From the NCBI RefSeq assembly GCF_002252635.1, contig NZ_NQKX01000001.1:248001-312000 (forward strand): a stretch of 64,000 bases of DNA, in the 5' to 3' direction. The number at the start of each line of letters is the position of its first letter. Position 1 is the stretch's first letter. This DNA is from Synechococcus sp. MW101C3. Its GTDB lineage: Bacteria; Cyanobacteriota; Cyanobacteriia; PCC-6307; Cyanobiaceae. Below are positions 12,456 to 49,151 of the stretch, piece after piece. Under the pieces are notes generated by a model. The model ran no database searches. It had not been told where the DNA came from and worked only from the letters and a program-made list of their open reading frames with translations. A program made the position numbers and the translations under genes.

Positions 12456-13619
12456 GTGACCATTCAGTTAGGCGGGAAGCGCACCGTCCGTCGTGCCTAC
12501 GGGATCGACGAGATCGCTCTGGTTCCCGGAGGTCGCACGGTCGACCCGGAGGTCACCGACAGCCGCTGGAGCCTCGGAGGCATCGACCGCGAGATTCCGA
12601 TCATCGCCAGCGCGATGGACGGGGTGGTGGATGTGGCGATGGCCGTTGAGCTCTCCCGCCTCGGCTCACTGGGGGTGCTCAACCTCGAAGGCGTCCAGAC
12701 CCGCTACGAAGACCCCAACCCTGCGCTCGACCGCATTGCGGCGGTGGGCAAAGAGGATTTCGTTCCCCTGATGCAGGAGCTGTACAGCCAGCCCGTGCAG
12801 GAAGAGTTGATCCGTCGGCGCATCGCCGAGATCCGCGAACAGGGCGGTATCGCCGCAGTCAGTGCCACCCCTGCGGCAGCGCTGCGCTTCGGCAAGGCTG
12901 TGGCGGAAGCCGGTGCTGATCTCTTCTTCGTGCAGGCCACGGTGGTGTCCACCGAGCACATCGGCCCGGAGGGCCGCGAGCGGCTCGATCTCGCCACCCT
13001 CTGCCGCGACATGGGCGTGCCGGTGGTGATCGGCAACTGCGTCACCTACGACGTGGCCCTGGAGCTGATGCGCGCCGGTGCCGCCGGGGTGCTGGTGGGC
13101 ATCGGCCCCGGTGCCGCCTGCACCTCCCGCGGGGTGCTCGGTGTGGGCATCCCCCAGGCCACCGCTGTCGCCGACTGCGCCGCTGCCCGCGACGATTACG
13201 AGCGGGAAACCGGCCGCCGTGTGCCGGTGATCGCCGACGGCGGCATCGTCACGGGCGGCGACATCTGCAAGTGCATCGCCTGCGGAGCCGATGCCGTGAT
13301 GATCGGCTCGCCGATCGCGAGGGCGGCCGAAGCACCGGGTCGCGGCTTCCATTGGGGCATGGCCACACCGAGCCCGGTGCTGCCCCGCGGCACCCGCATC
13401 AGCGTCGGCACCACGGGCAGCCTCGAGAAGATCCTGCGTGGCCCCGCCAGCCTCGATGACGGCACCCAGAATCTGCTGGGCGCGCTCAAGACATCGATGG
13501 GCACCCTGGGCGCCCGCACCCTGCGTGAGATGCAGCAGGTGGAGGTGGTGGTCGCCCCTTCCCTGCTCACCGAAGGCAAGGTGTACCAGAAGGCCCAGCA
13601 GCTGGGCATGGGCAAGTAG
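12456..13619 (+). CDS. guaB: GuaB3-type IMP dehydrogenase family protein
   Basis: A 387-residue IMPDH/GMPR-family barrel without the tandem CBS domains of classical GuaB. I chose the GTG at 12456 because homologues begin at about TIQLGGKRTVRRAYGIDEIALVPG. The phosphate and catalytic loops are readable: IASAMDGVVDVAMA, GIGPGAACTSRGVLGVGIPQ with the catalytic-type cysteine, and VIADGGIVTGGD. The family acts on purine nucleotides (IMP to XMP, or GMP reductase-like chemistry); the exact reaction is not settled by sequence. The sRNA Yfr1 and trxA follow directly, the same order known from marine picocyanobacteria. Confidence 0.9.
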   Translation: MTIQLGGKRTVRRAYGIDEIALVPGGRTVDPEVTDSRWSLGGIDREIPIIASAMDGVVDVAMAVELSRLGSLGVLNLEGVQTRYEDPNPALDRIAAVGKEDFVPLMQELYSQPVQEELIRRRIAEIREQGGIAAVSATPAAALRFGKAVAEAGADLFFVQATVVSTEHIGPEGRERLDLATLCRDMGVPVVIGNCVTYDVALELMRAGAAGVLVGIGPGAACTSRGVLGVGIPQATAVADCAAARDDYERETGRRVPVIADGGIVTGGDICKCIACGADAVMIGSPIARAAEAPGRGFHWGMATPSPVLPRGTRISVGTTGSLEKILRGPASLDDGTQNLLGALKTSMGTLGARTLREMQQVEVVVAPSLLTEGKVYQKAQQLGMGK

Positions 13620-13693: not shown

Positions 13694-13721
13694 CTGGACA
13701 GGCCGAGACGGGGGCTAGTCT
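13694..13721 (+). promoter_or_regulatory. Probable promoter of the Yfr1 sRNA
   Basis: A -10-like TAGTCT at 13716-13721 is preceded at 13694-13699 by CTGGAC, a partial -35 match, with 16 bases between them. It would place the transcript start near 13725-13728, at the first Yfr1 stem. Confidence 0.4.
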
Positions 13722-13724
13722 CGT

Positions 13725-13790
13725 GCCGTGGGGGCTACGGCTCGCACACTCCTCACACCACCCCGCCCGGCGCGTCCGGGCATTTTCTCT
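13725..13790 (+). ncRNA. yfr1: Yfr1 small regulatory RNA
   Basis: The unpaired core ACTCCTCACACCAC at 13748-13761 is the diagnostic conserved element of the cyanobacterial sRNA Yfr1. It is flanked as expected by a 5' hairpin (GCCGT / ACGGC, 13725-13741) and a 3' terminator hairpin (GCCCGG / CCGGGC, 13765-13781) followed by ATTTT. The position between a guaB-type gene and trxA is the known picocyanobacterial context. Yfr1 is an abundant RNA that base-pairs with mRNAs, including those of outer-membrane porins. The exact ends are estimated from the stems. Confidence 0.9.
13765..13786 (+). terminator. Rho-independent terminator of Yfr1
   Basis: A six-base GC stem (GCCCGG/CCGGGC) with loop CGCGT is followed by ATTTTCT, forming the 3' end of Yfr1. 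Confidence 0.75.
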
Positions 13791-13865: not shown

Positions 13866-14189
13866 ATGTCCAGCGCCACTGCCGTCACCGACGCCTCTTT
13901 TGAGCTGGATGTGCTCAAGAGTGATGTGCCCGTGCTGGTGGACTTCTGGGCTCCCTGGTGTGGTCCCTGCCGCATGGTCGCCCCGATCGTCGATGAAATC
14001 GCCAAGGAATTCGAGGGCCGTATCAAGGTCTTCAAGCTCAACACCGACGAAAACCCCAACGTCGCCAGCCAGTACGGCATTCGCAGCATTCCCACCCTGA
14101 TGGTCTTCAAGGGTGGTGTGAAAGTCGACACCGTCGTTGGTGCCGTGCCGAAGAACACCCTCTCCGGCACCATCACCAAATACCTCTGA
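13866..14189 (+). CDS. trxA: Thioredoxin
   Basis: A 107-residue thioredoxin starting at the ATG at 13866; an upstream in-frame TTG at 13851 is less likely. The active site WCGPC is at residues 31-35 in [14 protein letters not shown], the cis-proline loop is SIPTLMVF, and the fold ends normally. It is an m-type cytosolic disulfide reductase that receives electrons through thioredoxin reductase systems and controls Calvin-cycle and other enzymes. The gene follows Yfr1 and precedes the LOG-family gene by 23 bases. Confidence 0.97.

Positions 14190-49079: not shown

Positions 49080-49151
<72 letters not shown>

Follow-up and report, generated by a model that had tools for sequence, protein, structure and literature searches.

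Yfr1 is a small RNA of cyanobacteria that is defined by an ultraconserved undecamer, ACUCCUCACAC, lying within an unpaired stretch of 16-20 nt, and its published location is in the order guaB, yfr1, trxA (PMC2190773). In Prochlorococcus MED4, two porin mRNAs are bound by Yfr1 through base pairing, an interaction with which a second RNA, Yfr2, interferes (PMC6778093), while the Yfr1 of Nostoc acts on cell-envelope mRNAs and mostly represses them (PMC6974561). Yfr2 corresponds to the Cyano-1 motif (PMC8400943), and many picocyanobacteria carry two or more copies of it (PMC6778093). SS120, which is devoid of Yfr1, has an RNA named Yfr10 with the same motif (PMC6778093).

Here we analysed a 64,000-nt stretch of Synechococcus sp. 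MW101C3 DNA (the window), in which a Yfr1 gene had been predicted between guaB3 and trxA. The element is a standard Yfr1 ortholog at the standard locus, of a known kind and with a likely mechanism that is known as well. Taken as a whole, the evidence is best explained by the element being, almost certainly, the Yfr1 sRNA, which most likely silences porin messages through its seed.

Identification of Yfr1

A covariance scan of the whole window detected the Rfam Yfr1 family (RF01116) at 13728-13784 on the forward strand, with 62.9 bits against a gathering threshold of 38 (E 4.2e-10) and with the model covered end to end (positions 1-59 of 59). With the score above the cutoff, the Yfr1 identity put forward in the original prediction is upheld. 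The 14-base core ACTCCTCACACCAC occurs exactly at 13748-13761 (forward strand) and is the sole match in the window even if two mismatches are allowed. Because the chance mean at two mismatches is 0.39, the motif by itself is not decisive, and it is the covariance model that supplies the score. The 3.03-Mb genome contains a single above-threshold copy of Yfr1 by search with the Rfam model. The only other Rfam family above threshold in the window is an ordinary tRNA gene (49080-49151, forward strand).

The guaB3-trxA setting, also part of the original prediction, was borne out by family models on both sides, TIGR01304 being found 5' and TIGR01068 3' of the RNA, both on its strand (Table 1), in agreement with the published order. 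Viral contigs scanned with trxA gave distant thioredoxins alone (at most 58% identity), with no sign of a phage-borne copy of the locus. This analysis itself established the sequence and fold of the RNA, the conservation of its promoter and terminator, its single-copy state and its locus, as well as the complementary sites described below.

Table 1. Features of the yfr1 locus, numbered from the first letter of the window.
Feature	Position	Strand	Basis
guaB3 (GuaB3-family IMP dehydrogenase-related protein), upstream neighbour	12456..13619	+	NCBIfam TIGR01304, 529.1 bits vs cutoff 342.1; start codon is the choice of the family model, starts further upstream possible
-10 box TAGTCT, yfr1 promoter	13716..13721	+	TANNNT 6-8 nt before RNA start in 53/53 distinct relatives
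Yfr1 sRNA	13728..13789	+	RF01116 match 13728-13784; predicted 3' end approximate, in T-rich tail
5' hairpin GUG.GGGC UACG GCUC.CAC	13728..13747	+	covariance match, fold; 86% of cells paired, 31 distinct relatives
Conserved core ACTCCTCACAC, target-pairing seed	13748..13758	+	exact motif; unpaired in fold; conserved in alignment A3
Intrinsic terminator	stem 13765-13781, broken T-rich tail to 13791	+	terminator scan
trxA (thioredoxin), downstream neighbour	13866..14189	+	NCBIfam TIGR01068, 133.9 bits vs cutoff 96.8

Structure and its conservation

When folded from 13728, the RNA takes the two-hairpin form of Yfr1 (-24.4 kcal/mol, ensemble frequency 0.96). Folding of 13694-13790 gave a long-range stem with no marked excess stability (z -1.07). 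The unpaired conserved core, the 5' hairpin and the 3' terminator hairpin with its T-rich tail, all read from the letters at the outset, were each recovered: the core as the exact motif, single-stranded in the fold from 13728; the 5' hairpin by covariance match and fold; and the terminator by terminator scan and fold. The 5' hairpin has 7 pairs and one G-G mismatch, where the family has 6-10 bp with one bulge or internal loop allowed; the mismatch belongs to the family form, since the position is unpaired in 26 of 31 sequences. The unpaired stretch (13748-13764) is 17 nt long, within the range of the definition, and holds the undecamer. The terminator hairpin has 6 pairs and a tail read as ATTTTCTCTT or AUUUUCUCUU, in keeping with the GC-rich 6-9 bp hairpin and U-tail of the family.

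Across 31 distinct sequences, both helices are paired in 91.4% of cells, compared with 24-51% if one arm is slid, and the terminator stem reaches 98% of cells in the 31 relatives. Two-sided changes were seen at 4 pairs (14 cells), mostly from G-C to A-U at the inner or closing terminator pair, and since they are few, covariation gives modest support only.

Promoter and predicted transcript ends

The promoter-like -10 of the original prediction could be fixed as TAGTCT by comparison of 53 distinct upstream sequences, which come from many genera but are mutually related and are therefore not 53 independent events. The spacing from TANNNT to the first RNA base is 6-7 nt in 52 of these and 8 nt in the remaining one; in shuffled upstreams, TANNNT falls at 5-7 nt in 3.6%. 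A generic sigma-70 scan gave no full -35/-10 promoter on the forward strand at yfr1, and for this reason no -35 is claimed. From the position of the -10, conserved in all 53, it follows that the RNA starts at about G13728 and that the transcript is about 57-63 nt long, a length predicted from the -10 box and the terminator and lying within the family range of 54-69 nt. The RNA had previously been given as 13694-13790; position 13694 is ~34 nt upstream of the RNA, in promoter DNA, and the start was re-set accordingly.

The position of this element between two co-directional genes, together with the presence of a terminator, might suggest that the hairpins are cis elements only, namely a guaB3 terminator and/or an attenuator in the trxA leader, with no free sRNA. 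We consider this very improbable, as a conserved -10 box belongs to the element itself and the family model is matched over its full length. Moreover, in other cyanobacteria Yfr1 is found away from trxA or guaB, for example in the order ligA, yfr1, clpX, and it was detected as a separate RNA in 10 of 10 tested cyanobacterial species (PMC2190773).

Distribution among relatives

Yfr1 is present in all three genomes of the genus and in 114 of 120 sampled genomes of the order. Relatives with a near-identical Yfr1 are an uncultured Cyanobium MAG, Synechococcus sp. ATX 2A4, in which the RNA is identical, and the more distant Synechococcus sp. CCY 9618, in which the RNA block is kept and the flanks have diverged. 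Two genomes show a second, sub-threshold Yfr1 match of 34-35 bits on the opposite strand, overlapping the true Yfr1 (G025:C1:688547-688592 and G035:C1:671575-671644). These are probably the palindromic hairpins read in reverse.

An RNA of the Yfr10 type would share the Yfr1 motif without being Yfr1 itself, and Yfr10 indeed bears the same core (PMC2518516, PMC6778093). Its homologs, however, have the motif alone in common, with structure and synteny not kept (PMC6778093), whereas here all 59 model positions are matched and the locus is that of Yfr1, so that we give this reading hardly any credence. Among the exact-motif sites of this genome, none was a Yfr10 with a terminator. A weak second Rfam Yfr1 match (G000:C6, 21.7 bits) falls within an open frame of 721 codons whose reading is glycosidase-like, and it was rejected as Yfr10. 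Chance resemblance or a decayed copy is just as implausible, for although five further copies of the bare motif exist in the genome (all on the opposite strand with respect to the contigs, and without a terminator), the match is end to end with the E value given above, stems, core and terminator are intact, and two further species of the genus have identical or near-identical RNAs with diverging flanks.

Likely porin targets and a likely Yfr2 partner

The genome encodes four SomB-type porins. Pairing of the core with porin ribosome-binding sites had been anticipated in the original prediction, and at the level of sequence complementarity it was found in two of them: porin L049 carries TGGTGTGAGGA, 11 nt that are perfectly complementary to the core and overlap the Shine-Dalgarno site, and porin L047 carries GTGTGAGGA, a 9-nt perfect complement at the same place. 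Both complements end 4-5 nt before the ATG; the other two SomB porins have no core complement. With a GAGGA Shine-Dalgarno sequence granted, matches of at least 9 nt are expected by chance in 1.5% of cases and matches of at least 11 nt in 0.075%. The two genes lie side by side on a single contig and probably arose by duplication, and therefore they are not independent. Cofolding with Yfr1 gave -14.8 kcal/mol for L049 and -10.0 kcal/mol for L047, compared with -2.6 and -1.5 kcal/mol with a seed mutant. In this GC-rich genome, duplex energy alone did not set the porins apart from other start regions, and because such a ranking is uninformative, we used exact complementarity and the Shine-Dalgarno-conditioned null.

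The pattern is kept across genera, with 22 of 30 porins sampled from 16 Yfr1-bearing genomes carrying a complement of at least 8 nt; the seven porins of this sample with no complement at all have N-termini of other types. In two genera without Yfr1, 13 porins keep 7-9 nt of the site. The site is thus not a Yfr1-specific signature, although these genera bear other putative RNAs with the same motif. Its retention fits the report of Yfr10 with this motif in SS120 (PMC6778093), and by published analogy the two genera may be likened to low-light Prochlorococcus. At loci L229, L241, L248, L250 and L251, such a motif stands ahead of a GC-rich inverted repeat and a T-run.

One gene of the Cyano-1/Yfr2 family (RF01701) was found, at G000:C5:182896-182965 (L255; 45.2 bits). 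As the only copy found in the genome it is on the low side, since many picocyanobacteria have two or more. It is a different RNA from Yfr1 and a likely partner of it: the 5' end of Yfr2, GGGGGTGTGAGGGGT, is the complement of the Yfr1 core, an arrangement already published for Prochlorococcus, and cofolding puts its pairing with the seed at an energy of -31.5 kcal/mol.

With this in mind, a mechanism can be proposed. A free-standing promoter would start a transcript of ~60 nt at about G13728, which the GC-rich hairpin and the T-rich tail would terminate. The two hairpins would leave the ACUCCUCACAC core exposed as a seed for pairing in trans with GUGUGAGGA-type sequences, which cover the ribosome-binding sites of mRNAs for outer-membrane porins, and this pairing would block porin translation. 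Yfr2, whose 5' end complements this seed, would probably compete for it. Silencing of outer-membrane porin messages through their ribosome-binding sites is the most likely function of Yfr1. Published work on orthologs suggests that expression of Yfr1, translational repression and competition by Yfr2 would also take place in this organism.

A possible replacement of Yfr1 in a related genus

In one related picocyanobacterial genus (g22; G115 and G122-G130), none of 10 genomes, 7 of them of high quality, has a Yfr1 match, and in one (L123, G115) the guaB3-trxA spacing is only 47 nt. The drafts of this genus are small and of high GC content, and at a guess it may be a symbiont such as Ca. Synechococcus spongiarum. 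A block of ~76 nt is common to five g22 genomes, located near 1480-1570 on the forward strand in L244, L243 and L238 and on the reverse strand in L252 and L253. The block is identical save for two C/T positions and its flanks have diverged; it holds ACTCCTCACAC, is preceded by CATAAT at a distance of 6 nt and is followed by a terminator-like hairpin. It has no Rfam match, and in its fold the motif is less clearly unpaired. Porins of g22 (L077, L217, L218, L219, L222) have GTGTGAG or GTGTGAGG directly before the ATG, and three Cyano-1 (Yfr2)-like loci (L234, L235, L236) score 36-38 bits against a cutoff of 41 and carry, at their 5' ends, a sequence perfectly complementary to the Yfr1 motif.

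The ~76-nt block is a candidate Yfr10-type RNA replacing Yfr1. One may speculate, at about an even chance, that g22 lost Yfr1 from the guaB3-trxA gap, that the seed function was kept by this different RNA with its own promoter and terminator, and that the porin leaders keep the site. If this is true, the pairing between motif and target outlives the RNA scaffold that carries the motif. Porin sites that are kept where Yfr1 is lost and another motif RNA is present make the question of Yfr10-type replacement testable.

Comparison with known systems

The value of this work is mainly one of annotation: a predicted ortholog is confirmed, its ends are set, and its likely targets (two porin genes) and likely sponge (one Yfr2) are named. 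The Yfr10 family has the ACUCCUCACAC motif in common with this RNA, and targets in part (PMC6778093), but Yfr10 is not located at guaB-trxA and its structure is not conserved. From the Rfam Yfr1 consensus the RNA differs only by GC-rich substitutions in the stems and by a linker before the terminator that is 2 nt shorter, and we see no functional difference from known Yfr1. It is like the Yfr1 of the guaB-yfr1-trxA locus of Prochlorococcus and marine Synechococcus in its core, 5' stem-loop, 3' terminator hairpin, length, strand, neighbours and single copy.
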